From assembly GCF_002101295.1 (NCBI RefSeq), contig NZ_CP020778.1, forward strand, positions 971,001 to 1,035,000: a stretch of 64,000 nt of DNA, written 5' to 3'. Each line of letters begins with the position of its first letter. Position 1 is the first letter of the stretch. The notes under the pieces were generated by a model. The model ran no database searches. It saw only the letters and a list, made by a program, of their open reading frames with translations, and was not told the origin of the DNA. Below, one piece after another: positions 32,405 to 55,993 of the stretch. Source of the DNA: Candidatus Pelagibacter sp. RS40 (GTDB taxonomy: Bacteria > Pseudomonadota > Alphaproteobacteria > Pelagibacterales > Pelagibacteraceae). Made by a program: the position numbers and the translations under genes.

Positions 32405-33343
32405 ATGACCAATGAAGAACAAGAAATAACTAAAATAATTAATAAAAATTATAAAGAATATAATAAATTTCATTACCCACTTTCGTATCAAATTTTGTAC
32501 CTTTGGAAAAACTATCTAGGCAAAGATTTAGAGACAAATTTAATTCTCTCTAATTTAACGATTAAAGCTCTTAGAATTTATAACCAAAATAACAAAAAAA
32601 AATCTTACAAAGAATTTATAAAAACAAAACAAATCAGCATTGGAAAAGTAAAAAAAGCTGAATTATCAAGAGAATTATTAATTCCAAGAGAAACAATTAG
32701 ACGAAAATTAGAAGATCTTAAAAAAGAAAATTTTATTGATATGGTTGATGGCAATATAGATATTAATAGGAAATCATTTGAAATAAAAGATTTAGATACA
32801 ATAATAAATAAATATTCAAAATGTTTGAACATTATTGTGGATAATTTAAGTGACGACAAAACAATTACCAAAAAAAGTATAACTGAAGATTGCTTGTTAA
32901 ATAATTTTTCAAAATGTTGGATTAATTTGATGTCAATGATGATAGAATTATCCTTAATTTGGAGAAAATTTCTAAAGTCCATGGAAAATTGGTTCATTTT
33001 TGGAACTTGTGGTTTAAATCAAATGTATAACTTAAAAGACTCTAAAAATTTTAGAGATCTTCATCCTGATAACACTGAAAATTTCTTTTTGAATTTAACA
33101 AGAGAAGAGACAAGTAGAGGTTTAAACCCAACAACTATCTCTGATTTGACGGGTATTCCAAGACAAACAGTTATTAGAAATTTAAAAAATTTAACAAAGT
33201 CAAAAGCACTTGAAAAAGATACTAGGAGAAATCTTTTTTATGTTCCAAAAAACACAAGTCAACAAAAATCAATCGTAGAAACATTAAAAAAAATACAATT
33301 AGTGATTTCCCAAAACGTAAATAAAACTTTAATAGCAATATAA
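32405..33343 (+). CDS. DNA-binding regulator with two winged-helix segments, candidate regulator of the giant-protein locus
   Basis: The 312-aa cytosolic protein carries two helix-turn-helix segments of similar form: one at about residues 82-106 (ELSRELLIPRETIRRKLEDL) and one at about residues 242-265 (TISDLTGIPRQTVIRNLKNL), the second followed by a wing-like strand (DTRRNLFYVP). The family was not recognised; HTHs of this form occur in MarR-, Crp- and GntR-type regulators. ATG at 32405 is preferred over TTG codons at 32399 and 32402. It lies at the edge of the secretion locus, convergent with the small Lys-rich gene (1 nt apart), and a copy of the locus-specific motif sits in its own promoter. 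Control of the locus is inference. Confidence 0.7.
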   Translation: MTNEEQEITKIINKNYKEYNKFHYPLSYQILYLWKNYLGKDLETNLILSNLTIKALRIYNQNNKKKSYKEFIKTKQISIGKVKKAELSRELLIPRETIRRKLEDLKKENFIDMVDGNIDINRKSFEIKDLDTIINKYSKCLNIIVDNLSDDKTITKKSITEDCLLNNFSKCWINLMSMMIELSLIWRKFLKSMENWFIFGTCGLNQMYNLKDSKNFRDLHPDNTENFFLNLTREETSRGLNPTTISDLTGIPRQTVIRNLKNLTKSKALEKDTRRNLFYVPKNTSQQKSIVETLKKIQLVISQNVNKTLIAI

Positions 33344-33344
33344 A

Positions 33345-33590
33345 CTATTTTTTAGGTTTTGAAATTTTACCAGATATTGACTGGCCAGGTTTTACGTTAT
33401 GAGTATTATTTTTCTTTTTATTAAAATCGATTTTACCAGATAAAGTTTGTCCTACTTTTATAGTTGGATTATTTGATACTACTGGTTTTGGCTTAAACAA
33501 GTTGCCCTCAGCTTTACCGGTTTTTGCATCAATTTTTATATTAATATTCTTTTGAGAGCTTATAAATTTTTTAATGTCGTCTTTACTCAT
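33345..33590 (-). CDS. Small Lys-rich protein sharing a module with the TolC-like protein's tail
   Basis: The 81-aa, strongly basic protein has no signal peptide. It begins SKDDIKKFISSQKN, which resembles two segments in the tail of the upstream TolC-like protein (STEEINDLIKNQEKKN and SDEEIAKFIKKQEKKN). The C-terminal half contains two copies of a VGQ/PGQ-x-[LI]SGKI motif. Its ATG overlaps the TolC-like stop by one base (TAATG), so the two are co-translated. Function unknown; a cytosolic or periplasmic partner of the TolC-like extension is plausible. Confidence 0.65.
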   Translation of the reverse strand: MSKDDIKKFISSQKNINIKIDAKTGKAEGNLFKPKPVVSNNPTIKVGQTLSGKIDFNKKKNNTHNVKPGQSISGKISKPKK

Positions 33591-36082
33591 TAATTTAATT
33601 TACTTATTTTCAATTTTTTAGCTTTTTTCTTTGCTTCTTTCTTTTTAATTTTATCTAATTTCTTTCTTAGCTTTTTGTTCTTTTTTTCTTGTTTCTTTAT
33701 AAATTTTGCAATTTCTTCATCCGAATATAATTTATAATTACTTCCATTTTTCTCTTCAGCTTTTAAATAAACATTTAAATAATTTTCTGGATCTGTTGAT
33801 ACAATACTTTTTACCATTTCTTTTGGTGTCTCTAACACAGGTTCAGTTTTCTTTATTACCTTTTCTTTTTTTATTTTTTTCTTTTTATTCTTTTTCTTCT
33901 CTAGTTTAGCTCTTTCTTTTTCTTCTTTTTTCTTAATTTTCGCTAATTTTTTTCTTAATTTTTTATTTTTCTTTTCTTGGTTTTTAATAAGATCATTGAT
34001 CTCTTCAGTACTAAAGAAGGTAAATTGATTTCCATCTTTTATAGTTACTCTTTCATTTAAATCAAAAGTTTTTAATTCCTTAGCTTTTTTCTCAGCAAGT
34101 TTTTTTGCTTTAAGTTTTGCTTTTTTCTCTTTTAATTTCTGCGCTTTTAATTTCTTCTCTTTTTCTTTCTTACGTTTTTCAGCAAGTCTTTTCTCTTCTT
34201 TCTTACGTTTTTCGGCTAACTCTTTTTCTTCTTTAATCCTTTTTTCTTTTGCCAGCCTTTCTTTTCTTAGATCTGGATCAACTACTAATGTAAAAGTATC
34301 TTCAGTTGCTGTATTTATGTTTCTAGCACTGACGGTAAGGTCAATTTCTTCAATATTTCCCTTATTTTTTCTATCAATTAAGAAAGTTCTTTGAGATGGT
34401 AAAAAAGTTATCCATTCAGGAAGAGGGGCGTTATTACTTAATTTGGCACTGTATTGAACTCTGCCTTTTCCATCTAATTTGAATGTATTTTTTGCAAATT
34501 CAAAACTTGAAATATTTAAATCATCGTTTGTTACTACAGGCTTTTGTTTGTTAATTGGTTTTTTAACAATTGCTTTAAAATTCTTACCTGTATCTTTAAA
34601 ATTCTTTTTAATTATTTCTGCAAATTCTTTTGTTCCTATTTGTAAACTTTCTCTTGTTGTTACATCAACACCAACAGAGGTATAAACTTGTGCTACACTG
34701 AATTGAACTTTTGAAAACGCAATATCTCTTCTAAGTTCTGCAACCAACAAACTTGCTTCTTCTCTTATTAATTCTAATTCACCAAATCTTGCAATCTTTT
34801 GCGCATTTCTAACTTGCTCTGTAATTTTTCTTGAAACATCATAATAACGATCAGCTGTTTCATATTCCTCTAATGCCATTTGATATTCTATATTTGATAT
34901 ATGAACTTGTGATAATACTGCCATTGATAAAGCCAGTCTTTGCTCCTTAATAATTTCAGTATTCATTTCATTTACTTCTTTTAATCTTGGAGCTCTAAAT
35001 ACATTTAATAAATTTGCACCAATTGATGAACCATACTCAAAGTTAGTTTTATTCATTAAATAATCATTTGATGAACTTGTCCATGCTGCATTAAAATTTA
35101 ATCCAGGCAATAACGATCTCATACCTGCTTTTGTTTCTGCAATTGATATTCTTTCTTCGTAATGATTTTCAATTAATTCTGGTCTATTAACTAAAGCATG
35201 TTTTTCCATATGCTTTAATTTCATATTTAATTCGTTTAATGGTTGATCTGTTTGAACAAGTACAAATTTTTCGTTTGGAAGAAGTCCCATTAGGGCACCT
35301 AATTCTATTTTAGCGTTAATAAAGCTTTGTTTCTGGCTTTGAAGAGCTCTTTGAATATCTAATAATTCTTTTTGATATAAAAGAGCATCCATTGGTTTTT
35401 GTAACAAAAGCTCTTCTATTTTTTGACTATCGTTTAATGCATTATTTACTTTAATTAATAATGGATCATATTTTTTAATTAATTTTTCTGCCGATAATGC
35501 ATTCCAATAAGCTCTTATTACATCTTTTGTAATATTATTTGCTGCTTTTTTTTCTAATTCTTTTGATATTAAAAACTTATCTGAGCTTTGTCCTGCTCTT
35601 ATATATGAAAGACCAAAATCAAGTGCATTCCATGAAAAACCGACATCTTGTTCATTAACATCTCTATCTCTTGAGGTTGAATATGAGGATCCAATACTTC
35701 CCGCTAAGTCAGTACTTGGTACTGTTGCACTTGCTGTAGTTTTATATCTATCGCTTCCAGTATAACCTGCATTTGCTGCCATCGTTGGAAGCATTTCAAA
35801 CTCTACATCTTCTATTTTTCTATTAGCAAGTGATGTTTCTAAAAGTTTGACTTTTAAATCTTTGTTATTTTCAATTGCAAGAGCGATTGCTGTATATAAA
35901 TCTATTTTTAAATCTTTATTAAAAAGATCATTTTGCTCTTTAATCTCTTGTATTTTAGCCAAATCATCTTCTGCAGATTTTATAAAATCTTCAGATGTAA
36001 TAGGTTCAGGATTTCGCTTTGCACACGAAACAACCACCCCAAGAGATAAAACTAACAATATTTTTAATAAATATTTTAACAT
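33590..36082 (-). CDS. TolC-like outer-membrane lipoprotein with cadherin-like domain and Lys-rich coiled-coil tail
   Basis: The 830-aa product has a lipoprotein signal peptide with lipobox VVSC (Cys20). Residues about 55-495 form an outer-membrane efflux (TolC/OEP-type) domain, with two related halves of long helices and beta-strand segments (AYWNALSAEKLI and SNIEYQMALEEYETADRYYDV). Residues about 520-600 resemble a dystroglycan-type cadherin-like domain (APLPEWITFLPSQRTFLID), the same type found near the C-termini of the giant proteins. From about residue 604 a very Lys/Glu-rich coiled coil contains two copies of an S-[TD]-EEI-x-x-[LF]-I-K-x-QEKKN module. Ordinary TolC proteins are about 450-500 aa, so the extension of over 300 residues is exceptional. 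It is divergent from giant gene 1. Likely role: outer-membrane exit channel for the giant proteins. Confidence 0.8.
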   Translation of the reverse strand: MLKYLLKILLVLSLGVVVSCAKRNPEPITSEDFIKSAEDDLAKIQEIKEQNDLFNKDLKIDLYTAIALAIENNKDLKVKLLETSLANRKIEDVEFEMLPTMAANAGYTGSDRYKTTASATVPSTDLAGSIGSSYSTSRDRDVNEQDVGFSWNALDFGLSYIRAGQSSDKFLISKELEKKAANNITKDVIRAYWNALSAEKLIKKYDPLLIKVNNALNDSQKIEELLLQKPMDALLYQKELLDIQRALQSQKQSFINAKIELGALMGLLPNEKFVLVQTDQPLNELNMKLKHMEKHALVNRPELIENHYEERISIAETKAGMRSLLPGLNFNAAWTSSSNDYLMNKTNFEYGSSIGANLLNVFRAPRLKEVNEMNTEIIKEQRLALSMAVLSQVHISNIEYQMALEEYETADRYYDVSRKITEQVRNAQKIARFGELELIREEASLLVAELRRDIAFSKVQFSVAQVYTSVGVDVTTRESLQIGTKEFAEIIKKNFKDTGKNFKAIVKKPINKQKPVVTNDDLNISSFEFAKNTFKLDGKGRVQYSAKLSNNAPLPEWITFLPSQRTFLIDRKNKGNIEEIDLTVSARNINTATEDTFTLVVDPDLRKERLAKEKRIKEEKELAEKRKKEEKRLAEKRKKEKEKKLKAQKLKEKKAKLKAKKLAEKKAKELKTFDLNERVTIKDGNQFTFFSTEEINDLIKNQEKKNKKLRKKLAKIKKKEEKERAKLEKKKNKKKKIKKEKVIKKTEPVLETPKEMVKSIVSTDPENYLNVYLKAEEKNGSNYKLYSDEEIAKFIKKQEKKNKKLRKKLDKIKKKEAKKKAKKLKISKLN

Positions 36083-36130
36083 TAAATTGTTATTAAATTA
36101 TTTAGAGTCCTGGTCTATTTCATATACGTC

Positions 36131-36140
36131 CATTATGGGT
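36131..36140 (+). promoter_or_regulatory. Secretion-locus motif copy 2 (CATTATGGGT)
   Basis: Lies 48 nt from the TolC-like start codon in the divergent region. With the preceding C it forms the near-palindrome CCATTATGG, so either strand may be read. Spaced 63 bp (about six helical turns) from copy 3. Confidence 0.55.
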
Positions 36141-36256: not shown

Positions 36257-39200
36257 GTGAATAAATTTAAGAAAAAAAAAATTATAAAAAATAAGAAAGT
36301 ATTCATTGAGCCTTTAGAACAAAGGATCATGCTTGATGGTGCAGGATCGTCTACTTTTCTAGATCTAATAGATGAAAGATCACAAGCTGACAATTCAAAT
36401 AAAAGTATTCAAGAAGTTAAAAAATTTAAAGAGTTAAAAAGTGAAAATGGATCAAAAGAACTTCCATTTACTAATGTTCCAAGAGATCAATTAAAAAGAA
36501 AACAAATCGTATTCATTGATAAACAAGTTCCAGATTTTGAAAAATTAGCAAAGTCATTTAGAAAAAATGTTGAAATTCACTTTATTGAAACAAACGAAGA
36601 TGGATTTAAAAAAATTGAGCAAACTTTAGTAAACGGAAAAAAATATTCAGCCATACATATAATTGGGCATGGTAGTGCAGGGCAAATTTTATTTGGAAAT
36701 GCACTCCTAACAAATGAAAGTATTGAAAATTACAAATCAACTTTAGGTAGTATTGGTGAAAGTTTAACAAAAAAAGGCGATATCCTTTTTTATGGTTGCA
36801 ACATTGCAGCAAACGATAAAGGGGAAGCTTTATTAAAAAAAATATCCAATTTTACAAAAGCAGATATTGCAGCATCCAATGATTTAACGGGTAAAGTTGG
36901 GGATTGGGATTTAGAGAAAAAATATGGAATAGTTGAAACTAAAAATGTTCAAGTAGTAGATTATAAATCTTATCTCTTAATCTCTAAAAATACTGTTGGT
37001 GAAGATGGAATTGCAAGCGTAAGTGGAGGTTATGTTACAGCTTATACAGGTAGCCATACAATAAAGGATCTAAGATCAAACACCGAAGGTAACTCAAAAA
37101 CATATTCAGGTTGGTGGAATGTTACAAGAGAAAAAGCAGGAATAAGCTCAGGAAAAATTCAGGCTGGTGACGGTGATATTAGATTTGCGAGTGGCTCACC
37201 TCTTACAGCAAGCACCAGTACTCAATATGACAGTTACATTCTTTTTTTAAATGCAAAAAGAAATGATAAATCAGACAGAAATAATGTGGCTACCGTAACC
37301 TTTGATAATAATATTAAAGCAGTGATGTATGGACAAGAAACAGGAAAAAAAACAGTTGGAACAATGAATTTTGAGGTAAGTGGTTATACTTATGGTGGCT
37401 CAGAATCAAAGAGAGGTTTTGAAGATGGTGGTTCATCACAAACAACACAAGATGATTGGTTTTCGTTTTCAGGCAAAACTATTACTTGTGGTGCAAAAAA
37501 TAAAGATCCTGGTGACTATCTGCGAATTATAGTTGATGCTGCATCTCCTCCTGCTGTAAATAAAGATCCTGTTGCATCTAATAGCACTCAATCAGTAACT
37601 GAAAATGAATACGCAGCTCTTAATGGAGGTTATGGAGATGTTATAACAGGCAACGAAGATCCTGATGGTGATACAGTAACGATTACAAAAATTAAATATG
37701 ATAAATTTACAGACTCTAACAGTAATGACAAAGTAGATTCAGGTGAGATTGAAATTGGCAAAGAACAGGATTTAACCTCGGGTTGGAATTCTGTTAATAC
37801 AAAGTATGGAAATTTGTTTATTCATCAATCAACTGGTAAGTATGCATTTAATGCTGTAAGACAATCATCTCCTGATATCGAAAAGTACGATGATAATGAA
37901 AAATCTTTATCTTATACAGGTTGGGGTGTAAATAAGGCTCAATTTAACGAGGTAAATACAATTAATGCTGGAGAAAGTAAAACGGTATCATTCACCTATA
38001 CAATTGATGATCGTAATGGTGGTACCGATACTGGAACAATAACAATTACCATAAATGGAGCAAATGATACACCTATTGCAGTAAACGATTCCGCTTCAAC
38101 AATTGAAGGTGGAACAATTTCGACCTCAGATAATTTACTCAACAATGACATCGATAGAGACTCAAATGATAGTTTTGGGAATGGTTTTTATATTTCTGAA
38201 ATAAAAGCAGGGGAAGATGAGAATCATGCTTCATCTGGAAGCGAATTATCAGCTACGGTTACACAACAAACAGTGACAGGTAACTATGGAAATTTAACAG
38301 TTAATAGAGATGGAACATATACTTATACAGCTTTCACAGACTCCGGTCTAGCAGCAGGAGAAGAAGTAGAGGATCATTTCACCTATATACTTAAAGATGA
38401 TAGCAACGAAGCAAATATTGGAACGCTACAACAGGGCAGACCAATTGAAACTCCAGTGGATAAAAATAGTATTGGAAAATTAAGTATAGAAGTTGTTGGT
38501 GTTGCAGATGCTAATAATGCACCCGACTTAAAAGCTGATACAGGTTATGTTTATGAAGATTTTACTTTAACAGTTGCAGATGGTGCAAGCGCCAATGATG
38601 GTTTAGATTCATCTCCATTTACAGGGGATCAAGAGATTGCAGCAGACTCTGATTTTAATAGTAATCATGGAGATCATACGGGAGATCTATTAGGAAATGA
38701 TGTTGATGATGATGGAGATACTTTATCAATTAATGGAGTAAGACTTGCAAGTTATGTAGATACATTGGCTGATCCACCAAGTTTTACTACTGTATCTGGT
38801 TCAACAAGTATTACAGGAACTTATGGAGTTCTTACAATTAATCCTAATGGCTCTTATAGTTATGCTGCAACAAATACCAATACAGATGAATTGGATTTGA
38901 ATGATACGGTTGTTGATAAATTTGATTATAAAGCAACAGATGGAACTGATGAAGCATATACTAGACTAACAATTACTATAAAAGGTATCAATGATGATCC
39001 TGTAGGTGTTGTAAATACTGATTCAGTTACACTTGGCTCATCTCTAAATAGAACTGATGGATCTAGTTACGATATATTAGGTAACGATACCGATGTTGAT
39101 GGTGATGATGATGAAAATGATTTTACAATTACAAGTATCACAGCAACAACAGCTGGCGGTTCAGCTCAAACAACTTTTTCTAGTAATACAGAGACTGTTT

Positions 39201-42200
39201 CAGGACAATACGGAACATTAGTTTTAAACTCTAATGGAAGCTACACATATGATCCAACTGGTAATGCAAATACCATAGCGCTTGCAGATGGTGAAACTGC
39301 CGATGATGTATTCACTTATATATTTAATGATGGAACTTCAAAATTAACTGAGCATAGCAGTGGATCTTTAAAAACAAACCCAAGTGGAACATCTACTTTA
39401 ACAATTACAGTTACTGGCAGAACTCCAAGTGCAGCCGATGATACAGGAAGAATAAATGCAGGCTCAACATTAACTGTTACTGATGGATCATCTGGTGAAG
39501 ATGGAAGTGATACTGATAAAGATAACGAGAGTGGAGACCATACAGGAGATGTTTTGGAAAACGATACAGGATCTTCAACAGCTGTTACTGGTATTCAATT
39601 AGGATCTGAAAGTGCTCCAGGTGCATCTGGTACAATAGGCTCTGTTTTTCAAGGAAATTATGGTGATTTAACAATAAATGCGGATGGTTCTTATACTTAC
39701 AATGCTAATAATGCTGGAACATTGTTGGCTGGTCAAACTGCAACTGAAACATTTACTTATACAGTAACTGATGGCACTGGTAAAACTGATACCGCAACAA
39801 TTACTATTACAATTTTAGGAGTTGATGATGCTCCTGCAGCAGTTAATGACACTGGTTATATTCAAGAGGCATCTACTTTAACTGTTGAGGCAGATGAAGG
39901 TGTAGATGGTACCGATGATAACAATAATAATGAAAGTGGTGACACATCAGGCGGTGCTTTAGAAAACGATTCTGATGCAGATGGTGATAGCACAATGTCA
40001 ATAACATCATATGAGCACACTTCAGGAACTAATACTTCTGGAGGCGCTTTAGCTAGTAATAGTAATAGTGGTGAAGCAGGATCAAGTTCAGTTGTTGGAA
40101 TATATGGAACTTTAACTTTGGCAGCTGATGGATCTTATACTTACGCTGCAAACGAAGATATAAGCACACTCGATAGTGGTGAGACTGTTACAGATGTTTT
40201 TACTTACACTCTTACAGATAGTGATGGAGATACTGCAGACGATACTGCAACAATTACAATAACAATTGTTGGAATAAGCGCACCTTCTGCTGCAGATAAT
40301 ATTGCGACAGTAGAGGAAAATAGCACTTTAACAGTTGCAGATGGTGCAGGCGTTAATGCTGAAACAGCAGCAACACATGCTGGTGGTTCAGATTCTTTTG
40401 CAGTTCATGCACAAGAAAATGATGGAACTGGAATTAGTTTTAGTAGCGATGGTAAGAAGATGTATATTACAGGACATGCTCAAAACAAAATTTATCAATG
40501 GGATTTAAGTACTGCATTTGATCCCTCAACAAAATCAAATCTAGTATCCAAAAGCACTAATTGGAACGGTGTAGATAATTCAGGTGATGACGATTTTAGT
40601 AATGATCAGGGAGATTGGACAAGAGGTCATGTATGGAATGTTGATGGTACTAAACTTTTTGTACTTAATTGGGATGGAGGTGTCGCTGGTGATAGCACTG
40701 CTTCTTACCGTATATGTTCATATGATGCCTCATCTCCTTTTGAAGTTTCATCATTAACAATAGCAGCACCAACATCTTCAACAAGCTTTGATACAGGATA
40801 CACGGACGCACATTTAAATTTAAGTGTAAGTAATGATGGTAAAAAATTTCATATAATTGATAGAGGAGATAAAGTATTAAAACAGATAAAATTAACAACT
40901 GCATATGATTTATCAACTGCATCTTATGAAACTGGGTATTCTTTAGCTGCTGCAGTTAGTGGACCAAGAAGTTTTACATTTAGCGCTGATGGAAAAAGAT
41001 TTTTTGTAGGCTGCCAGTCTAATGATAAAATATATCAGTTTTCATTAGATAATGCTTTTGACGTAACACCAGGATCTGTAACTCTAGATGGAAATATAAA
41101 TTTATTAAATAGTGGTACGATGCCATTTGGAATAACATTTGGTGCCGGTGGTACTAAAATGTTTGTTCATGAAATAGATGGTAACGATACTGTTGAAGAG
41201 TATGCTTTAAGAACACCATACAATTTAATTGATTTAGATGGAGAGCATGACGGAGATGTTTTAGAGGATGACACAGATACAGATGGTGGTACTTTAACAG
41301 TTTCTTCAGTTAGAACAGGATCAACAGAGGGGTCTGGTACAGCAGGAACTTTAGGGCAAGCTCTTACAGGGACTTATGGAGATCTTACATTAAATGCTAA
41401 TGGATCGTACAATTATACAGCAAATACAGGCATTTCAGCTACAGAAGCATTGGATGCGGGTGATATTGTTTATGACTATTTCAATTACACCGTTTCTGAT
41501 GGAACTGGAACGGACACCGCTTTAATCACAATAAAAGTAATTGGAGTAAACGATGCTCCATCTGCAACAAATGATACTGGGTATATTCATGAAGGTGGAA
41601 CATTAACAGTTTCAAATGGTGGATCAGCTGTTTCTGGAACCTCAACAGGAAGTAATACAGGGGATGTGTTATTAAATGATACAGATGTTGATGCAAATGA
41701 TACATTAATTGTTGTTGGAACAGTTACACAAAACGGTGGAACGAATACAGCGGGCGCATCAGTTGCGAAGAATAATGAGACGGCAGATGTTGGTGCTAAA
41801 ATAGATGGACTTTACGGAGACTTAACTTTAAATGCAGATGGATCTTATAGCTATATAGCAAACGATGCTGCATCTCTCAATAACGGTGAAACTGTTACAG
41901 ATATATTTACATTTACTACAAGTGATACTCAAGGAGGAACAGATACATCTACTTTAACAATTACAATTATTGGTAAAGGAGTAGATCTTACAAATGACAC
42001 AGATGCAGTAAATGAAGATGCAAACATCACTGTAAGTGATGGTGATGATGAAGACTTATTAGTAGATGATTTTGGTGTATCTACAGTTACGAGTGTTGCA
42101 CATACAAGTGGAACAGATGGAAATGGAACTGCTCTTTCGAGCACTGGTAATTCGGCGTCTGCAGGCTCTGCTGTTATTGGTCGGTATGGTACTTTAACGG

Positions 42201-48000: not shown

Positions 48001-51000
48001 GAACAGCAACAACAATTACAACTTTAACAATTACAGTTGGAGCCAGTAATAACGCTCCTTCAGCAGTTGCAGATACAGATAGTGTAAATGAAGACGCAAC
48101 AGTTACCCAAAGTTCTGGTTCAGGTTTATTAAGTGCAGATGATACCGATGGTGATGGTGATAGTTTAACAGTAACACAAATTAAAAAGGATGGTGGTACC
48201 AACTCAGCTGTATCTGGTGGAAGTTCTTATAATTCAAGCGGAACCTCTGTTACAGGAACTTATGGAACATTAACTGTTGGAGCTGATGGAACATATACAT
48301 ATGTTGCAGATCAAGCAGCTGCTGATGCTTTAGATGCAAGTGATATTGTTACAGACGTATTTACTTATACTATTTCAGACGGTAATGGTGGAACTGATAC
48401 TGCAAACTTAACCGTTACAGTTACTGGAGTTAACGATGCGCCAGTTGCTCAAAATGATACAGGAACTGTAAATGAAGATGCCACACTAAATGTTTCTAAC
48501 GATGCTACAAGCGTTACCGGAGTTTCTCAAGATACTGGTTCACCTTACTCACTTAGCGCAGGTACAGCACGTTCCGTAGCATTTAATCATGATGGTACTA
48601 AAATGTTTGTTGTTCATGCTCCCGGCACAGCAACAATCTCTGAACATGCTTTAACAACTGCTTTTGATATAAATACTGCTTCTCAAAGCACTACATATGA
48701 TATTTCTTCTCACATAAGTGAACCACGTGGTATCAGATTTAATAGTGATGGTACTAAACTTTATATAATCAGTAGTGCAGGTGGTAATAAAAAGATTCAT
48801 GAATATTCTTTATCTACAGCTTATGATGTATCTTCGTTACCAACTCCTTCTTCAACAGTAATTAGCAGCCAAGACGGTGGTCCTAGAGGTTTTACTTTTA
48901 ATACTGATGGAACTAAAATGTTTTTACTTGGAGACACCAACCACCATGTTTATGAATATTCTCTATCAACAGCTTTTGATACCACAACAATATCATACAC
49001 AAGTAGAAGTTTAGATTTTAGTTCAAGAGAAGTTACACCAAGAGGTATTTCATTTAATCCAACAGGTTCAAAATTATTTATTACAGGTCAAAGTAGTGAT
49101 GAAATTTTAGAATACGATCTTAGTACTGGTTTTAACTTATCTACTGCAACATTTAATGGTGCATTTGATGTGGGTAGCTTTGCTAATAAACCTAATGATA
49201 TTGTATTTAATAATGATGGAAGTAAAGCATTTTTAGCTCGAGCAAATTCAAATGCAGTCTTATCTTTTTCACTTTCAAGTCCATACAGTTTTGTTGATAT
49301 AACAGGTGAACACACTGGAGATGTAATAGATACAAGTTCAAGTTCTAATTCAGATTCTGATGCAGATGCAAGCTCATCTTTAACAATTTCAGCAATAAGA
49401 GCAGGCTCAAGTGAAGGAAATGGAAACCCAGGTTCAGTTGGATCTGCCTTAGATGGAACCTATGGTCAATTAACAATCAATGCTAACGGTTCTTATTCAT
49501 ATGTTGCAAATAAAGATGCAGCCGACGCACTTGACCCAGGTGATATAGTTACAGACAGTTTTAACTATACAGTCTCTGATGGAACAGCTACAGATATAGG
49601 CGTTATTACTATAACGGTAGTAGGTGTAAATGATGCTCCAACAGCATCAAACAATACTATTACAACTAATGAAGATACAAACCATGTATTTTCAACAAGT
49701 GAATTCAATTTTAGTGATACTGATGATAGCGGAAGTTTAAATAAAATTAAAATTACATCTTTAGAAAATAATGGTGCGTTACAATATTATAATGGATCTT
49801 CATGGGTTGATGTGACTTTAAACCAAGAAATTACAGCTCTCGATATTTCAAATGGATACTTAAGATTTAAGCCCGATTCTAATGAAAATGGAAGTTCATA
49901 TACTTCATTTGGATTTCAAGTAAATGATGGAACTGCTTATAGCTCATCTAAGACTATGACTGTCAATGTAACTGCAGTAAATGATACGCCAACAGCAACT
50001 GATGATACTGCAAGTGTAACAGACGGATCTAGCGTTACAGTATCAAATGCATCAAGCGGTGTAATTGATGATAATGATACAGATCCTGACAGCTCAGATA
50101 CATTAGTAATAACAAATATTTCTCACACAAATGGAAATAGTAGCAATGTTACATCCGCAACAACATATTCTAATGGAACATCAATAGCTGGAACATATGG
50201 AACGTTAACAATTGGAGCAGATGGAACATATACCTACACTCCAAATGGCTCTTTGGATACTGGTGAGTCCGGTAATGATGTGTTTACCTACACAGTTTCA
50301 GATGGATCAGCCACAGATACAGCAACTATTACAATTTCGGTTACAGGTGCAAACGATGCCCCAGCTGCATCAAACGATAGTAACACAATCGATATATCTA
50401 CAAACTCAACTTTAACAGTTACAGATGGTTCCATTAAGGACGTATTAACCAATGATACCGATGCTGATACCAACGATACTATTAGTGTAACAGAAATTAG
50501 AACAGGTGCCTTAGAGGGAGCAGGAACTTCAGGCGTAGTTGGATCTTCACTTACTGGAACATATGGAACATTAATAATAAACTCAAATGGAAGTTATACT
50601 TACATTGTTAATACTGGACTAGATGATACTTTAAATAAAGGTCAAATTGTATTTGAATATTTCAATTACACTGTATCAGATGGAACTACAACTGACACAG
50701 GCTCTATAGTTATTAAACTTCAAAATGGTGGACAGGTCGTTAAAGAAATTAGAGAAAAAAAAGCTGAAAGATTAATTAAGAGGGAAAGTAAAAGAAATGA
50801 AAAATCAAATAAATCAAATTTTAATTTACCAAAAATTGAAAGTAATTTTGAATTAAATTTAAATCAAATTGATCTTCCAAAACAAAATAAAAAAGCAGAT
50901 TTTTCACAAGGTCTTAAATTAACTGATCTTGTTGCAGAAACTAACTCAATTGAAGTTAAAGAAAAATTAAAAGACGTACCAGATGTTTTTGCAGATAAAG

Positions 51001-51833
51001 TAAAAGTTAAAGTTAAAAATGATAGTTTAAATCTTAAATTTAAAATTTTTAATGAATCAGGTTTTGATATTATTAAATACGAAGGAGTAATGAAAGATGG
51101 ATCACCTTTACCTGATTGGATCAAGGTAGATCCAAAGACAGGAGCTACCAAAACCAATATTCCTGATGGCGTGGAAAATGTAGAAATTATAATTATTGCA
51201 ACAGATAGTCAAAATGAGAGAAGAGAAATAAGTGTTAAAATTGATCCAGAACAAATTCTAAATGATAAGCAAATAATAAAACGAGCAAAAAAACAAAATG
51301 CAAGTATAAGTGTTGATGAAAGTGGCAATGTAAACTTGATTAAAAATAATCAAGATGGATCAGTAAATCAAAATTCTACAAGTATTTTAAATTTTAATAA
51401 TAAATCAGATATTTTAGATATCCTTCAATCAAAAAGATCTGATACTCTTTATACTTTAAAACCAAAAATTATTGATACAAATTTGGTTATAAATTTGCCA
51501 AGTGAACTATCACAAAAATTTGAAAGATCTAAACTTGTATTAAAAGATGGTTCTGAAATACCTGAGTGGTTAAGTTACGATCCTAACTCAGGAAAAATAA
51601 TTGCAGAACCGCCAGAAGATATTTCCAAATTAGACTTAAAACTTATTATCGAAAGAGATGGTGAAATAATTGTTAAAGATTTATCTATTGAATTTGGTGA
51701 TGATGATACTGCGCGAATTGACGAGTTAAATAACGAAAAAATCGACAATAAATTTGTAAGTTTAAAAGACCAATTAGATAAACAGTTTACTAGTTGGGAT
51801 GATTATGGTTCAAACGTTATTAATAGATTATAA
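45063..51833 (+). CDS. Giant repeat surface protein 2 (DUF4347, VCBS repeats, two nested propellers)
   Basis: The 2,256-aa paralogue of giant protein 1 has the same order of parts. Residues 15-28 read IEPLEQRIMLDGAG with no Sec signal. The DUF4347-type domain (about residues 80-225) has H134 in LIGHGSAG and C177 in LFYGCN. A beta-rich domain ending GDYIRILVIP follows, then about seven VCBS/cadherin-like repeats, two of which carry five-repeat propeller-like insertions. A Lys-rich linker precedes two dystroglycan-like cadherin segments (DGSPLPDWIKVDPKTG and DGSEIPEWLSYDPNSG) and the end DDYGSNVINRL. The HlyD-like gene begins 16 nt downstream, so the giant gene and the export genes probably share a transcript. 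Probably a secreted surface protein; target unknown. Confidence 0.85.
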   Translation: MDKKSKNIRSQKIFIEPLEQRIMLDGAGASTFLDLIDERNQQEIKKNSKNKDIYKEGTQSNTEIPFTTVAREARNDRKNIVFIDSQVKDYREITKSFRENTEVYLISSNEDGFKRINQILQDRENINALHLIGHGSAGQILFGNAFLNNETIDNYKSTLSSIGQSLTDKGDILFYGCNVASTDQGQLLIKKISEITKADIAASDDITGKGGDWELEKQFGLISEEELKVKNYNHALGSLSTTGVLSGSGVTHIDSNVTMMNSGNVGLGASGAYATVGSDFGLAVEELNVSVSSGDLISNVDVDSTYIWNDDNNTGNAELQNGANQNASSNITVNSYLMFLVDNLNKRTSTSAGEVVFDGEIVGIFFDQAKTRAENVDGNTYHSSSLIYAMSGSGGGSNSADSDGGRMPEGKKPSSGMTNFFNSTQSHGSGGVADSSNGSDWVSVSNHGSGTNNLLQFGAQNANSSAGDYIRILVIPNATNTAPAAADNIGTVKEDATLTVSNGATSNSITGASFVDSFDLSSQESNPQGVAFNEDGTKMFIVGRDGDEVNEYTLSTGYDVSTASYDSNFSVASQDTIPQDIVFNADGTKMFILGEGNGAVYAYNLSTGFDVSTASFINNFSVASQENSPQGLAFNNDGTKMFITGGGGRDVNEYTLASAFNTATASFVDSFDISSQDTLPNGLVFNSDGTKMFVTGNQGNDINEYTLSTGFDVSTASFVGNISVSSQDTTPGGIKFNNDGTKLFMVGVAGADINEYTLTTPFSLVNISGEHDGDVLLDDTDADSDTLTVTQIAVTGESNSSVSSSSSYNSSGTSKTGTYGTLRIGADGSYDYVADQAAADVLDPGAVVTDSFTYTVSDGNGGTDTATLIITVVGVNDDPVGVADTDSVATSNTVTDATNSAGTVISDDTDADASSSLTVTAIQHSGAGSATSVSAGTTRADGASSSGTYGTLTIGADGSYSYVAGSSAGTDEFTYTVSDGTATTITTLTITVGASNNAPSAVADTDSVNEDATVTQSSGSGLLSADDTDGDGDSLTVTQIKKDGGTNSAVSGGSSYNSSGTSVTGTYGTLTVGADGTYTYVADQAAADALDASDIVTDVFTYTISDGNGGTDTANLTVTVTGVNDAPVAQNDTGTVNEDATLNVSNDATSVTGVSQDTGSPYSLSAGTARSVAFNHDGTKMFVVHAPGTATISEHALTTAFDINTASQSTTYDISSHISEPRGIRFNSDGTKLYIISSAGGNKKIHEYSLSTAYDVSSLPTPSSTVISSQDGGPRGFTFNTDGTKMFLLGDTNHHVYEYSLSTAFDTTTISYTSRSLDFSSREVTPRGISFNPTGSKLFITGQSSDEILEYDLSTGFNLSTATFNGAFDVGSFANKPNDIVFNNDGSKAFLARANSNAVLSFSLSSPYSFVDITGEHTGDVIDTSSSSNSDSDADASSSLTISAIRAGSSEGNGNPGSVGSALDGTYGQLTINANGSYSYVANKDAADALDPGDIVTDSFNYTVSDGTATDIGVITITVVGVNDAPTASNNTITTNEDTNHVFSTSEFNFSDTDDSGSLNKIKITSLENNGALQYYNGSSWVDVTLNQEITALDISNGYLRFKPDSNENGSSYTSFGFQVNDGTAYSSSKTMTVNVTAVNDTPTATDDTASVTDGSSVTVSNASSGVIDDNDTDPDSSDTLVITNISHTNGNSSNVTSATTYSNGTSIAGTYGTLTIGADGTYTYTPNGSLDTGESGNDVFTYTVSDGSATDTATITISVTGANDAPAASNDSNTIDISTNSTLTVTDGSIKDVLTNDTDADTNDTISVTEIRTGALEGAGTSGVVGSSLTGTYGTLIINSNGSYTYIVNTGLDDTLNKGQIVFEYFNYTVSDGTTTDTGSIVIKLQNGGQVVKEIREKKAERLIKRESKRNEKSNKSNFNLPKIESNFELNLNQIDLPKQNKKADFSQGLKLTDLVAETNSIEVKEKLKDVPDVFADKVKVKVKNDSLNLKFKIFNESGFDIIKYEGVMKDGSPLPDWIKVDPKTGATKTNIPDGVENVEIIIIATDSQNERREISVKIDPEQILNDKQIIKRAKKQNASISVDESGNVNLIKNNQDGSVNQNSTSILNFNNKSDILDILQSKRSDTLYTLKPKIIDTNLVINLPSELSQKFERSKLVLKDGSEIPEWLSYDPNSGKIIAEPPEDISKLDLKLIIERDGEIIVKDLSIEFGDDDTARIDELNNEKIDNKFVSLKDQLDKQFTSWDDYGSNVINRL
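46600..47350 (+). repeat. Five-repeat propeller-like module A in giant protein 2
   Basis: Five repeats of about 48-50 residues share the pattern FNxDGTKMFI-x4-7-EYTLSTGFDVSTASF. They are inserted between a VCBS TLTVSNGA strand and SGEHDGDVLLDDTDAD. The repeats are close to each other in sequence, suggesting recent amplification. Confidence 0.8.
48520..49300 (+). repeat. Five-repeat propeller-like module B in giant protein 2
   Basis: Five more repeats of the same type (FNHDGTKMFVV, FNSDGTKLYII, FNTDGTKMFLL, FNPTGSKLFIT, FNNDGSKAFLA) are inserted between LNVSNDAT and TGEHTGDVI. They are more diverged from each other than module A. Confidence 0.8.
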
Positions 51834-51849
51834 ATAACACAATAAAATC

Positions 51850-52566
51850 ATGAAAAAATTTCTTTTTACAATCTTAATTTCTTATTTATTCTTAAATTTT
51901 ACTCATGCAGAAGAGATTAGAGAGGCCAGAGCTTTAGTAACTGCAACCGAAAAAGTATCAATATCAAGTGAATTAGCAGCGAGAGTTGAAAATATTAATT
52001 TTCTGTTAGGAGATCCTTTTAAAAAAGGTGACGTTTTAATTAGTTTTGATTGCAAAATCTATAAAGCTCAAAAAGAAGTAATCCAGGCAAATTATGATAG
52101 TGCAAATATTCAATTAAAAAATGATAAAGAATTATTGGAGATGAGATCAATTGGAAAACTCCAATATCAACTATCAGAATCTGCACTTAAAAAAGCAAAA
52201 GCTGAATTAAATATTGCAAAACTAAATGTAGATAGATGCGAAATTGTAGCTCCATACAACGGAAAAGTTATGGATGTTTATACAAGTATTTTTTCTACCA
52301 TAGAGCAAAGACAGCCCTTAATGGATATTGTTGGAGATGGTTTGTTAGAGGCTGAAATAGTTGTTCCTAGTAATTGGTTGAGATGGTTAAAAAAGGGTCA
52401 CGAGGTAAAAATTTTAATTGATGAAACAGGTGAAACTTTAGATGCAAAAGTAATTAGTCTTGGAGCAACAGTTGATGCAGTTAGTCAAACAATAGAATTG
52501 AAAGCTCAATTTAATGAAAAATATGAGTCTTTAATTCCAGGAATGAGTGGGATTGTTAAGTTTTGA
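51850..52566 (+). CDS. Short periplasmic HlyD/RND-type adaptor protein
   Basis: The 238-aa product has a Sec signal peptide (cleavage near THA-EE). The lipoyl-like half-motifs flank a coiled-coil hairpin (VSISSELAARVENINFLLGDPFKKGDVLISFD and CEIVAPYNGKVMDVYTSI), followed by a beta-barrel domain. It is shorter than normal membrane-fusion proteins (350-450 aa) and has no membrane helix. It likely bridges the inner-membrane proteins encoded next and the TolC-like channel. It overlaps the next gene by 4 nt. Confidence 0.82.
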   Translation: MKKFLFTILISYLFLNFTHAEEIREARALVTATEKVSISSELAARVENINFLLGDPFKKGDVLISFDCKIYKAQKEVIQANYDSANIQLKNDKELLEMRSIGKLQYQLSESALKKAKAELNIAKLNVDRCEIVAPYNGKVMDVYTSIFSTIEQRQPLMDIVGDGLLEAEIVVPSNWLRWLKKGHEVKILIDETGETLDAKVISLGATVDAVSQTIELKAQFNEKYESLIPGMSGIVKF

Positions 52567-53894
52567 GCGAAGATAAAAATATTAAAATAGCAAGATTAAT
52601 TGGTTTAGAAAAAAAAACTCGTGAAGCTAAAACACAGGACGAATTAAATTTTGTTGTAGCAAATGAAACAAGACAAATCATCGATTATATTAATTCATTT
52701 CTGTTATTAAAAGCTCCAACAGATAAGTTTCAAGTAAAAGCAACTTCAGATCTTGCAACAGTTGATAGAACTGCTCCATTAATTACGTTTATTGAAAATA
52801 TTATAAATGAATCAGGGCACAACTTTAAAGAAATTCAAAATTTAGATGTAGATAAAGTTTCCAAAAAAATAAAAGTAAAAAAACCTAAAAATTTACCAGA
52901 TAACATATTATGTATTCCCATTCTAAGTCCTCAAAAAGGTTTACAAGGCTATTTAATTTTATCGAGAAATGAAAAATTTATTGAAAATGAAATTGAATTA
53001 TCAAGACACTTATCAGTAACTTATGGACATGCTTTCAATTCATTCTTAACAGATTTTTCAATTAAAAATTTTTTAAAAAAACATTTATTTGGATCAAGAG
53101 CATGGATAGTAATTATTATAATTATATTTGTTTCAATTATCCCAATTAAAATAACGAGTACTGCTCCTGTTGAAGTAGTCCCAAAAAATCCAATTTTAAT
53201 TACATCTCCTTTTGATGGAGTAGTTAAAAATATAGTTGCTAATAATAATGATCAAATAAACTCTGGTGATTTGTTGGTTATGTTGGAAGACACCGATCTT
53301 TCAAATAATTATAATTTATCAAAACAATCTCTACAAGTAGCAGAAAAGGAACTGCTCAGAAGCAGACAATCCTCATTTACCGACAATAAAGAAAAAGCAA
53401 GATTAGCGGAATTAGTTGCTCAAGTTGATTTAAAAAAAGCGGAAGTAGAGTCTACAGGTGAGAAATTAAAAAATACAAAACTTTATGCTAGCCAAAAAGG
53501 AATTGCGATAGTTGACCAAAAAAATGATTGGCAAGGAAGACCAGTTTCTGTTGGTGAAAAAATAATGACCATAGCAAACCCTAATAATGTTGAGTTTTTA
53601 GTTTGGTTACCTGTCAAAGACTCATTGATTATTAAGGAAAATTCAAATGTTAAAGTATTTTTAGATATAAACCCAATCAAGCCATTAAAAGGCAAGTTGC
53701 TTAGAGCATCCTACGAGCCATCATTGTCACCTGAAGAAGTTTTATCCTATAAAATTGGAGTAAGTTATGAAGGTGAAGTCCCCCCAAGAATTGGTTTAAG
53801 AGGAACAGCCAAAATTTATGGCTCAAGAGTTACATTGTTTTATTACTTATTTAGAAAACCTATCACATTTGTAAGACAACTAATTGGTATATGA
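52563..53894 (+). CDS. Membrane-fusion (HlyD-like) protein with N-terminal GAF-like domain
   Basis: The 443-aa product uses a TTG start at 52563 that overlaps the previous stop. Residues about 1-165 look like a cytosolic GAF-type domain (VANETRQIIDYINSFLLL, CIPILSPQKGLQGYLILSR). One membrane helix follows at about 182-198, then a periplasmic lipoyl/coiled-coil/barrel HlyD region (TSPFDGVVKNIVANNNDQINSGDLLVMLED). A sensory domain on a membrane-fusion protein is unusual and may gate export by a cytosolic signal. It overlaps the protease gene by 4 nt (ATGA). Confidence 0.78.
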   Translation: MSEDKNIKIARLIGLEKKTREAKTQDELNFVVANETRQIIDYINSFLLLKAPTDKFQVKATSDLATVDRTAPLITFIENIINESGHNFKEIQNLDVDKVSKKIKVKKPKNLPDNILCIPILSPQKGLQGYLILSRNEKFIENEIELSRHLSVTYGHAFNSFLTDFSIKNFLKKHLFGSRAWIVIIIIIFVSIIPIKITSTAPVEVVPKNPILITSPFDGVVKNIVANNNDQINSGDLLVMLEDTDLSNNYNLSKQSLQVAEKELLRSRQSSFTDNKEKARLAELVAQVDLKKAEVESTGEKLKNTKLYASQKGIAIVDQKNDWQGRPVSVGEKIMTIANPNNVEFLVWLPVKDSLIIKENSNVKVFLDINPIKPLKGKLLRASYEPSLSPEEVLSYKIGVSYEGEVPPRIGLRGTAKIYGSRVTLFYYLFRKPITFVRQLIGI

Positions 53895-55993
53895 TAATCC
53901 CATACTTAAGACAGGATTTAGAAATATTTAGAGGTAATAGTCGTGAAGATGGTGCACCTGCGTGGTTACTTTATGATGCTGTTAGGAATAAATATTTTAC
54001 TCTCGGATTAACTGCTTTTAAACTAATTAAAAATTGGAGAGGTGGGGAAGATATTCAAAATTTTGAGAAAAAAATCAATTCAGATGGAATTGAAACCAAC
54101 AGTGATGAAATAAAAAGTTTTATAGGTTTTCTTCAACAGAATAATTTAATTGTTCAACCTCCAGGACAAAATGTAAATTATTTATTGCAACAAAAAAACA
54201 GCATGAAAAAAAACTGGTTGCTTAATCTTGTACATAGTTATTTATTTTTTAAAATTCCTCTTTTTAAGCCAGATGAATGGTTAGAAAGAAATTTAAATAA
54301 AGTAAAAAGTTTAGGATCAGCAAAATTTAGAAATATAATATATATCTTAGGATTTATTGGCATCTGTCTTGTCATCCAACAATTTGCTGTATTTAAAAAA
54401 ACATTTTTATATTTTTTTACATTCAATGGATTGATGCTTTATTTTGCAACTTTAGTGATAGTAAAGTGCCTGCATGAATTAGGTCATGCTTTTGTTGCAA
54501 AAAACTATGGTTGTAGAGTTTCTGCAATAGGAATTGCCTTTTTAGTATTTTTTCCTTTTTTATATACTGATACAACAGATGCCTGGCGACTTAGAAATCA
54601 TAAAGAAAGACTTCTAATTAATTTTGCAGGAATACTTACAGAATTACATTTAGCATTAATTGCAACTTTTATTTGGGGAATTTTACCTGAAGGTGGAATG
54701 AAAAGCGTAATGTTTTTTATTGCAACCACTTCTTGGATATCATCACTATTAATAAATGTAAGTCCATTTATGAGATTTGATGGATATTATGTTTTTTCTG
54801 ATTGGCTAAAAGCTGAAAATTTACAACCAAGATCATTTGCTCTAGCGAGATGGAAAATAAGAGAGACTCTTTTTGGATTTAATCACAAACCACCAGAGGA
54901 AATTAATCCAACGAGAAGATGGACATTTATAATATATGCTTGGGCAACCTGGCTTTACAGATTTTTCTTATTTATTGGAATAGCATTACTTGTTTATCAT
55001 TTAGCGTTTAAAGTTTTAGGTATTATTTTATTTGTTATTGAAATTTATTGGTTCATTATGCTTCCAATTATTAAAGAAATTAAAAACTGGTACATGATGA
55101 AGTCTGAAATGAAACTAAATAGACAAACTGTAAGAACAATAGCAATTCTGACAGTTTTAACTATGATTGTTGTACTACCATGGAAATCATCTTTAAAAAT
55201 TCCCGCTGTATATATCTCTGAAAAATATTCAAAAGTTTATTCACCTTATCCAGGTAAAATAAAACAGATATTTGTAACTAAAGACGCTGAAGTAGAAAAA
55301 GGCCAAGAATTATTAGAACTCTATTCACCAGATTTAGATAAAAAAATAAATTCATTAAGAACGAAAATTAAACTTACAAAAACTAAGATTAATAGATTAA
55401 GTGATAGCGCTGGTAATATGGATCAATATATTACTCTTCAACAAAGATTGCTTGCACTACAAAGTGAGGTTCGTGGATTAACTAATATAAAGAGTAAGCT
55501 AATTTTAAAGTCGCCAATTAAAGGCAAAATTAAAGATTTTTCAGGGCTAAGTGAAGAAATGTGGGTTAGTAATACCGACCAATTATTAGGGATTGTGCAT
55601 TATGGAACAGGTCAGGTTAAAGGCTTAATTAAAGAGGAGCAAATTGATAGGTTCAAAGAAAAATCTCCCGCAGTATTTATTCCAAATGATGGTGAACATA
55701 AAAAAATACATTTAATTTCAAGCACTTTAGATTTATCAGCTGTACAAAATTTACCTTACATATCTTTAAGTTCATTACACAATGGACCAATTGCAATTAG
55801 AAATTTTACATCTGGAGAATTTAAATACAGACCCGAAACTGCTCATTATCTTGCAGACTTTAATTTAATAAATAACAGTTCAATACAATTTGAATTACCA
55901 GGTTACGTTCATATTGAGGGTAGCAGATATAGCCCATTTATAAAATTCTTTAAAAATATAATTGCTCTTCTCGTAAGAGAGAGTGGATTTTAA
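53891..55993 (+). CDS. M50 site-2-type metalloprotease fused to a lipoyl/HlyD-like domain
   Basis: The 700-aa polytopic inner-membrane protein has an N-terminal cytosolic segment (about 1-125: DGAPAWLLYDAVRNKYFTLG) that may be a PqqD-like peptide-binding fold. The intramembrane zinc site is HELGH at 195-199, with the second motif FDGYYVF and D297 as third ligand. Further helices run to about residue 430, followed by a periplasmic part with a split lipoyl motif (SPYPGKIKQIFVTKDAEVEKG, LKSPIKGKIKDF) and a coiled coil. Related M50-HlyD proteins occur beside membrane-fusion genes in other bacteria. It could cleave and hand over the giant proteins in place of an ABC exporter. Last gene of the locus; it overlaps the photolyase stop by 4 nt. 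Confidence 0.82.
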   Translation: MIIPYLRQDLEIFRGNSREDGAPAWLLYDAVRNKYFTLGLTAFKLIKNWRGGEDIQNFEKKINSDGIETNSDEIKSFIGFLQQNNLIVQPPGQNVNYLLQQKNSMKKNWLLNLVHSYLFFKIPLFKPDEWLERNLNKVKSLGSAKFRNIIYILGFIGICLVIQQFAVFKKTFLYFFTFNGLMLYFATLVIVKCLHELGHAFVAKNYGCRVSAIGIAFLVFFPFLYTDTTDAWRLRNHKERLLINFAGILTELHLALIATFIWGILPEGGMKSVMFFIATTSWISSLLINVSPFMRFDGYYVFSDWLKAENLQPRSFALARWKIRETLFGFNHKPPEEINPTRRWTFIIYAWATWLYRFFLFIGIALLVYHLAFKVLGIILFVIEIYWFIMLPIIKEIKNWYMMKSEMKLNRQTVRTIAILTVLTMIVVLPWKSSLKIPAVYISEKYSKVYSPYPGKIKQIFVTKDAEVEKGQELLELYSPDLDKKINSLRTKIKLTKTKINRLSDSAGNMDQYITLQQRLLALQSEVRGLTNIKSKLILKSPIKGKIKDFSGLSEEMWVSNTDQLLGIVHYGTGQVKGLIKEEQIDRFKEKSPAVFIPNDGEHKKIHLISSTLDLSAVQNLPYISLSSLHNGPIAIRNFTSGEFKYRPETAHYLADFNLINNSSIQFELPGYVHIEGSRYSPFIKFFKNIIALLVRESGF

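Follow-up and report, generated by a model that had tools for sequence, protein, structure and literature searches.

Putative leader-directed export of giant surface proteins by an ABC-free cassette in a SAR11-like genome

The window, a stretch of 64,000 nucleotides, harbors a locus at 32405-55993 in which two giant genes are flanked by genes for a TolC-like lipoprotein (OEP), a short HlyD, a GAF-HlyD and an M50-HlyD (also termed RRE-M50-HlyD). All of them are open reading frames of the window at the positions given below, and the composition described in the earlier note agrees with both the reading frames and the Pfam matches. The features are:

33590-36082, minus strand: TolC-like outer-membrane factor, OEP (PF02321, E 7.6e-23)
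36257-44941, plus strand: giant 1, 2894 aa, with leader motif, DUF4347, VCBS/cadherin-like repeats and conserved C-terminus
36314-36343, plus strand: leader motif LEQRIMLDGA of giant 1, LEPR-XLL domain (direct sequence; NF012209)
36497-36952, plus strand: DUF4347 domain of giant 1 (PF14252, E 9.1e-47)
44870-44884, plus strand: C-terminal FxxQL-type motif of giant 1, LTEQV (direct sequence)
45063-51833, plus strand: giant 2, 2256 aa, paralogous to giant 1 at both ends
45114-45143, plus strand: leader motif LEQRIMLDGA of giant 2 (NF012209)
45291-45746, plus strand: DUF4347 domain of giant 2 (PF14252, E 2.7e-50)
51762-51776, plus strand: C-terminal motif of giant 2, LKDQL (direct sequence)
51850-52566, plus strand: short HlyD, RND-type periplasmic adaptor (TIGR01730, 102.7 bits, cut-off 94.9)
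52563-53894, plus strand: GAF-HlyD, with N-terminal GAF-like domain, one transmembrane segment (residues 173-205) and HlyD domain
53891-55993, plus strand: RRE-M50-HlyD, inner-membrane protein (Peptidase_M50 and HlyD in Pfam)
53891-54175, plus strand: RRE/PqqD-like leader-peptide-binding domain, residues 1-95 of M50-HlyD (AlphaFold2, Foldseek)
54473-54487, plus strand: M50 zinc motif HELGH (direct sequence), with its partner D297-G298 of MRFDGYY at 54779-54784
55220-55717, plus strand: C-terminal HlyD/lipoyl adaptor part of M50-HlyD (PF16576/PF13437; MexA/AcrA/MacA/EmrA fold matches)

The OEP carries an N-terminal lipobox (VVSC) and a lysine-rich C-terminal extension; it reaches only 21.5 bits with TIGR01844, and its gene lies divergently upstream of the giant gene, an arrangement shared by relatives. 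It represents the TolC-family outer-membrane factor that type I secretion systems (T1SS) require. The HlyD adaptors, likewise required, are represented by three cassette proteins (Pfam), whose closest models are of the RND-adaptor type. The short HlyD has an apparent signal peptide. The GAF domain of the GAF-HlyD in the window is under Pfam detection, and GAF is matched by 14 of 38 members of this family (best 8.9e-6).

Both giants combine DUF4347 with cadherin-like/Big_9 repeats (Pfam), and both of their ends are conserved. Because no hydrophobic 19-mer occurs anywhere in them (maximum in the first 100 residues 0.48/0.62), they are without a Sec signal by sequence, and Sec export was ruled out on that ground. 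Profile searches gave no match to an RTX family in the giants, so that the earlier description of these proteins as lacking Sec signals and RTX repeats stands. The repeats recall Bap/LapF adhesins: NF045619 (BapA/Bap/LapF large adhesin, cut-off 180) is matched at 399.5 and 222.1 bits, over the repeat region and not the C-terminus. T1SS cargo has an uncleaved C-terminal secretion signal, and RTX repeats are frequent in it, not obligatory. An identity as RTX/T1SS cargo was rejected, given the missing RTX match and the restriction of NF045619 to the repeats. The FxxQL-type motif, which was defined on the same data, is found in 17 of 29 cargo C-termini and in 0.5% of internal windows. A general role of DUF4347 as a cysteine protease was also discarded: the Cys is retained, yet several Nitrospirota copies have lost the His motif.

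Of 80 named loci, most have the cassette. Giant proteins are its neighbors in Proteobacteria, Nitrospirota and Desulfobacterota as well as on E. coli plasmids; it is plasmid-borne in Azospirillum, Variovorax, Kosakonia, Burkholderia, Magnetospirillum and E. coli. Of 64 testable loci, 61 have the GAF-HlyD gene immediately upstream of the M50-HlyD gene, and 49 have all four cassette genes; in the other 15 at least one component is seemingly missing near M50-HlyD, which is partly due to fragmented contigs and the thresholds used. All 10 SAR11 relatives examined in full possess the cassette, and this, together with its recurrence in the 80-locus set, shows that the grouping is not due to chance. 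Within SAR11 this surface-adhesin-like system occurs almost throughout one genus of a sister family and seldom in the host genus. Across 289 alphaproteobacteria, 12 of 14 strong DUF4347 matches fall in genomes with M50-HlyD (P about 1e-15), a co-occurrence that the earlier note had proposed to look for; the two remaining matches are without the leader motif. Giants with this N-terminus are therefore not regularly found without M50-HlyD, which the note had set as its other refuting case.

In agreement with the earlier note, which saw no Walker A protein in the locus, no ATPase family is matched by the proteins of 32399-55993 (Pfam). The nearest ATPases, an AFG1-type AAA protein (30858-31907) and an OppD/F-type importer (15566-17599), are both outside the locus. 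In TolC-dependent export of giant proteins, as known, the energy comes from an ABC exporter. The cassette might accordingly belong to a T1SS whose ABC exporter is encoded elsewhere, with an ATPase borrowed, for example, from MsbA or the PglK-like flippase, and with M50-HlyD only maturing the cargo. The TolC and HlyD parts of the cassette are indeed T1SS parts, and many larger cassette genomes encode T1SS ABC proteins: among 32 cassette genomes, an LssB-type T1SS ABC protein is over the cut-off in 10, and others give full-length weaker matches. (TIGR03375 is unselective at E 0.001 in these 32 genomes, and therefore only cut-offs and coverage were used.) However, when the complete 1.38 Mb host genome was searched family by family, its PF00664 proteins comprised only a PglK-like protein and an MsbA-like one (TIGR02203, 498.6 bits), whose gene adjoins a waaA-like gene. 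No T1SS ABC exporter of the HlyB/LapB/PrtD type is present in the cassette or the host genome, T1SS models scoring far under cut-off, and no C39 peptidase-ABC fusion (PCAT) was found in the locus or among the two PF00664 proteins. The ABC exporter inventory is of the same kind in relatives with and without the cassette, and T1SS ABC genes are not among the conserved neighbors of the cassette in the 80 loci. A consistently accompanying exporter, which had been sought as a refutation of the original proposal, was thus not found, and recruitment of an unlinked ABC protein appears unlikely.

The N-terminal motif LE-x-R-x-x-F/L-D-A/G-A/G is tightly linked to the cassette. It stands at the start of all 28 intact cassette-linked DUF4347 proteins and in none of 9 from cassette-free genomes; it is also found in 10 of 10 held-out relatives, in the giants of six plasmid loci and in two neighbors of the cassette in locus L151 that are not DUF4347 proteins. 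The motif corresponds to the LEPR-XLL domain (NF012209), for which scores over the cut-off occur in 12 of 17 genomes with the cassette and in 10 of 272 without it (P 6e-12). In the giants themselves, the N-terminal stretches score 20.1 and 20.6 bits against a cut-off of 17, whereas the whole proteins score 13.5 and 14.6, probably because of a length effect on this 24-residue model. DUF4347 was rejected as a cassette marker, since cassette-free genomes contain leaderless copies and proteins of other kinds beside the cassette bear the leader. Tail-fibre/collar genes near the cassette were likewise dismissed as additional leader-bearing cargo (motif in 0 of 6 checked). The available part of the source for LEPR-XLL assigns no receptor to the named domain, which is here tied to the RRE-M50-HlyD cassette.

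Full-length M50-HlyD returned only HlyD-type proteins among the best 50 Foldseek matches listed, and its N-terminal domain (residues 1-95) was therefore modelled alone (AlphaFold2, pLDDT 90). The fold of this model is that of RiPP leader-peptide-binding domains (RRE): the six best Foldseek matches in the PDB are lasso-peptide B1 proteins with bound leader (probability 0.96-1.00, TM 0.55-0.69). The E-values are weak (0.03-0.1), as expectable for a domain of 95 residues, and the evidence is therefore at the level of the fold. PqqD is one of two Pfam families that most M50-HlyD members match weakly, and profile searches of PDB sequences gave nothing significant for either the RRE or the GAF domain. 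The residues of the M50 active site (H195, E196, H199, D297, G298) are invariant in 43 sequences. M50-HlyD thus has two features of RRE-fused site-2 proteases, the RRE fold lying N-terminal to an M50 domain with intact site; a third feature of this group, removal of the leader, is predicted for it. With the model of the daptide RRE-M50 protease (NF041824, cut-off 300) it scores 144.3 bits (E 5.2e-42), and the two are homologous but not equivalogs.

The RRE-like domain precedes the first transmembrane segment of M50-HlyD and is most likely in the cytosol. This bears on a two-step route, in which the giants would cross the inner membrane non-classically via Sec or another general translocase, leaving periplasmic passage, the outer membrane and release to the cassette. 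Such a route would fit a cassette without an energy source, and a periplasmic intermediate could be picked up by the adaptors. Against it stand the likely cytosolic place of the leader-binding domain and the giants themselves, which have no hydrophobic segment, whereas the OEP has one at its N-terminus and the short HlyD has its apparent signal peptide; this route is rather improbable. The intact protease site, the GAF domain and the Bap/LapF-like repeats could also suggest a LapD/LapG-like device for regulated retention or release, in which GAF senses a signal, M50 trims the giant close to its N-terminus and export takes another route. This is very unlikely: a motif at the extreme N-terminus together with an RRE better fits leader recognition at entry, the cassette holds a complete adaptor-TolC set, and no other route was found in the genome. 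Finally, RRE and M50 are leader-processing parts of RiPP pathways, and the product could be a short N-terminal peptide freed from the giant. There are no conserved modifying enzymes near the cassette, this peptide would be unmodified, and the giants are conserved at both ends, making such a pathway exceedingly improbable.

Leader-directed, self-contained export of giant surface proteins by an ABC-free cassette is thus the probable reading. The cargo would bear the N-terminal leader LExRxx[F/L]D[A/G][A/G], which the RRE-like domain of RRE-M50-HlyD may capture in the cytosol and the intramembrane M50 protease probably cuts right after the motif. The HlyD parts of the three adaptors and the TolC-like lipoprotein would assemble into a conduit to the cell surface through which the giants are secreted, while the second adaptor, through its GAF domain, probably detects a cytosolic signal. 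ABC exporters would play no part. The cassette encodes no recognised energy-transducing protein, and it might be guessed that energy comes from the proton motive force or a housekeeping motor. The RRE-like domain on M50-HlyD and the strict linkage of motif and cassette greatly strengthen the suggestion that this motif serves as the signal. The earlier interpretation as a whole, with M50-HlyD in place of the ABC exporter, is partly supported; a role of M50-HlyD as the translocator itself is putative, and M50 proteases are not known as protein translocators.

The cassette shares with the T1SS of giant adhesins (LapA/LapBCE, BapA, SiiE) a TolC-family factor, HlyD adaptors and Sec-less, giant, repetitive cargo. 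In contrast to these systems, it has no ABC exporter, and none of T1SS type exists in the complete genome; it has a conserved N-terminal leader and three adaptors, of which one is fused to GAF and another to RRE-M50. The epipeptide M50 protease EpeP works in a Gram-positive host, without an outer-membrane conduit. It is the nearest precedent, thought to combine cleavage and export in one protein, but its substrate is a small peptide rather than a giant (PMC10885120). The daptide proteases MpaP/DapP (NF041824) share the RRE N-terminal to an intramembrane M50, and this type removes a leader of the pattern ELExMEAP, which resembles LEPRxMFDA of the cassette, both leaders being short; the available part of the report describes no HlyD domain or TolC partner, and these proteases act on a short RiPP peptide instead of a giant protein (PMC10036551). 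PCATs likewise recognise an N-terminal leader and cut it off, and those of Gram-negatives cooperate with HlyD/TolC but, unlike the cassette, they employ a C39 cysteine protease and an ATPase, and their cargo is limited to about 10 kDa (PMC8277102).

No earlier description of the cassette system was found in the open-access literature searched. The chances are about even that it constitutes a new type of secretion system, present in at least three phyla and on plasmids, with an ATPase-free RRE/M50/HlyD component in the inner membrane, a dedicated TolC, and LEPR-XLL-guided cargo of hundreds to over a thousand kilodaltons. Such a system would tie a RiPP leader-recognition module to protein secretion and supply a likely function for the LEPR-XLL domain, which has a name but no explanation. 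The host is a SAR11-like ocean bacterium, and many unrelated bacteria share the cassette. It is without an ABC exporter, lies here in a streamlined genome likewise without one of T1SS type, and would serve some of the largest bacterial proteins. The cargo gene of the Variovorax cassette measures 48.7 kb, about 16,240 codons.

The window occupies 971,001-1,035,000 of a complete host genome (1.379 Mb, one contig), which its size, GC and gene content mark as probably SAR11 (Pelagibacter-like). ORF and family searches confirmed the gene content and layout that an earlier note had described for an export locus of giant proteins:

32399-33343, HTH gene for a Crp-like regulator, upstream of the cassette
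33590-36082, minus strand, TolC-like lipoprotein (OEP), divergent from the giants
36257-44941, plus strand, giant 1 (2894 aa)
45063-51833, plus strand, giant 2 (2256 aa), a paralogue of giant 1
51850-52566, plus strand, short HlyD, tightly coupled with the two following genes
52563-53894, plus strand, GAF-HlyD
53891-55993, plus strand, M50-HlyD

The last three genes overlap by 4 bases at each junction. The Crp-like gene is not a conserved part of the cassette (OEP, short HlyD, GAF-HlyD, M50-HlyD) in the relatives examined. A family search of the locus proteins found no ATPase family, in line with the earlier note, which saw no Walker A protein there. The OEP of SAR11 (33590-36082 in the window; loci L194-L203) has about 830-1000 aa, where most other bacteria have roughly 500-640 aa, owing to a long C-terminal extension, which is rich in lysine in the window copy and includes a stretch that resembles the C-terminal LPxWI domains of the giants (BLASTP E 5e-4). 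A glutamine-synthetase-like gene (IAKQKKIKYF..., 58555-59880) adjoins the cassette both here and in the sister family (L194, L195, L200, L201), which suggests a common ancestral position.

Among 150 relatives, M50-HlyD occurs in 41, including 3 genomes of the host genus (the window's genome counted in) and nearly all genomes of one genus of the sister family, and the presence of DUF4347 follows it. All ten fully read loci from relatives contain OEP, a DUF4347 giant, short HlyD, GAF-HlyD and M50-HlyD in identical arrangement. Across 84,980 species genomes, at least 594 relatives were confirmed, of which 80 were kept for comparison (Alpha-, Beta-, Gamma- and Zetaproteobacteria, Nitrospirota, Desulfobacterota). 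In the 64 with sufficient upstream sequence, GAF-HlyD is adjacent to M50-HlyD in 61, short HlyD is present in 56, OEP in 51 and all of them in 49.

The window giants share the N-terminal 490 or so residues and the C-terminal region, and contain DUF4347 and many VCBS/cadherin-like repeats. They contain no hydrophobic segment and no match to an RTX family, which bears out the proposed lack of Sec signals and RTX repeats. DUF4347 (36497-36952 and 45291-45746) recalls clan CD cysteine peptidases: the Cys (YGC) is conserved and the SHG motif mostly kept, the His being lost in several Nitrospirota copies. Repeats of the type FNxDGTKMFxxG...xxEYxLSTxFDVSTASF in giant 2 (residues about 530-760 and 1165-1440) are probably beta-propeller inserts between cadherin-like domains.

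The cargo proteins carry an N-terminal leader motif, LExRxx[F/L]D[A/G][A/G], corresponding to the LEPR-XLL model (NF012209). In the 80 cassette loci it is present in 28/28 DUF4347 proteins with an intact N-terminus (23 fitting the first pattern, and five, in L119, L125, L135, L141 and L144, assigned by eye, one position being alanine; the truncated L097 protein is outside this count). Giants from six plasmid loci have it too, as do 10/10 relatives that played no part in its definition. By contrast, eight genomes without the cassette encode nine DUF4347 proteins that all lack it, and in most of these the domain starts near the start codon. Conversely, locus L151 (genome G414) has the cassette and no DUF4347, and two neighbours of about 970 aa begin with LEKRLMLDAS. 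Judged from these sequences, the leader motif goes with the cassette rather than with DUF4347. The expected co-occurrence of such giants with the cassette was borne out among 289 alphaproteobacteria, M50-HlyD being present in 17 of them (truncated at a contig end in two, interrupted by stops in one): the LEPR-XLL model exceeds its cut-off in 12/17 vs. 10/272 others (P 6e-12) and DUF4347 reaches E ≤1e-40 in 12/17 vs. 2/272 (P 1e-15), whereas weaker DUF4347 matches show no association (P 0.5), phylogeny being ignored throughout. A C-terminal motif, [FL][STDG]xQ[LVIF], lies in the last 60 residues of 17/29 cargo proteins, the same data that defined it; it is absent from the preceding 60-residue stretches and found in 0.5% of internal windows, and held-out relatives match it exactly in 7/10 cases and nearly in the other three.

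The N-terminal 95 residues of M50-HlyD are predicted to fold into three strands followed by three helices (pLDDT 90). The top six Foldseek matches in the PDB are lasso-peptide B1 proteins (5v1u, 6jx3, 5v1v), all described as leader-peptide complexes (probability 0.96-1.00, TM 0.55-0.69); rank seven is unrelated. Because the E-values are 0.03-0.1, the likeness to an RRE, a leader-peptide-binding domain, is fold-level evidence. PqqD is the prototype of such folds and, with one other, the Pfam family that the largest number of members of the domain match, though weakly (3/43, best E 0.029). The model of the daptide RRE-M50 protease aligns with residues 31-391 (E 5.2e-42); the protein is clearly related to that family by this profile match, though under its cut-off. 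Both matches lend independent support to an RRE-like fold. The M50 active site is invariant in 43 sequences, and M50-HlyD has about seven hydrophobic segments. In daptides, a protein of this type joins an RRE to a site-2 protease and cleaves off a leader whose motif is ELExMEAP; another RRE protein of that pathway needs one leucine and one methionine of the motif (PMC10036551). The cargo motif of the cassette has a similar layout.

No ABC gene is a cassette component across the loci examined, and the cassette lacks the ABC exporter that defines a type I secretion system (T1SS). The complete host genome encodes two PF00664 proteins, one MsbA-like (best model TIGR02203, 498.6 bits; adjoining a waaA-like gene) and one best matched by PglK, both far under T1SS cut-offs. 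SAR11 families have a PF00664 protein of about 580 aa plus 0-2 others, and the set in 150 relatives is of the same kind with or without the cassette. In a survey of 32 cassette genomes with the LssB-type model, ten exceed the cut-off and several have weaker full-length T1SS-like matches; in at least the host genome, G454, G456 and G458 the best exporter scores no better than MsbA-like. One Phyllobacterium plasmid carries a T1SS pair within a few kilobases of a cassette.

Linkage, architecture, the RRE-like fold, the intact protease site, the leader-cassette association and the lack of a T1SS ABC exporter in a complete genome form the computed basis of the following model. The cytosolic RRE domain of M50-HlyD would capture the cargo leader, the cargo would enter the membrane at this protein and the leader would be cut just past the motif. 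The three adaptors, of which one is periplasmic and another is anchored and has its GAF domain in the cytosol, may bridge to the TolC-like lipoprotein with their HlyD parts. A precedent is EpeP, an M50 protein thought to both cleave and export its substrate, which is a peptide (PMC10885120). Peptidase-containing ABC exporters do an analogous leader job, but are ATP-driven, and their cargo is below about 10 kDa (PMC8277102). The parts of the cassette are already known; their combination is undescribed in the open-access literature searched. On a minimal reading the cassette is a variant of TolC/HlyD export; if export is confirmed, it would be a distinct kind of secretion system.

The cassette also occurs on plasmids of Azospirillum, Variovorax, Kosakonia, Burkholderia, Magnetospirillum and E. 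coli. The M50-HlyD gene is present in 24/5426 complete E. coli genomes, 21 of its 25 places being plasmids; IncF-type plasmids carry the whole cassette together with an Ig-like giant of 4460 aa (L065, NZ_CP081687.1). In Variovorax (CP063167.1, 19413-68132; L061/L067), a single ORF of 48.7 kb, or about 16,240 codons, lies upstream of the cassette and has ALEARYMFDAA close to its beginning; type II secretion genes lie immediately downstream. Small phage-collar-like "tail fiber" genes (about 205-230 aa) cluster beside the cassette in L063, L064, L068, L070 and L146; none of the six checked has the leader motif. In genome G398 (C1:2116071-2118175), stop codons interrupt M50-HlyD and DUF4347 is matched in two separate pieces, so that the cassette looks decayed there.
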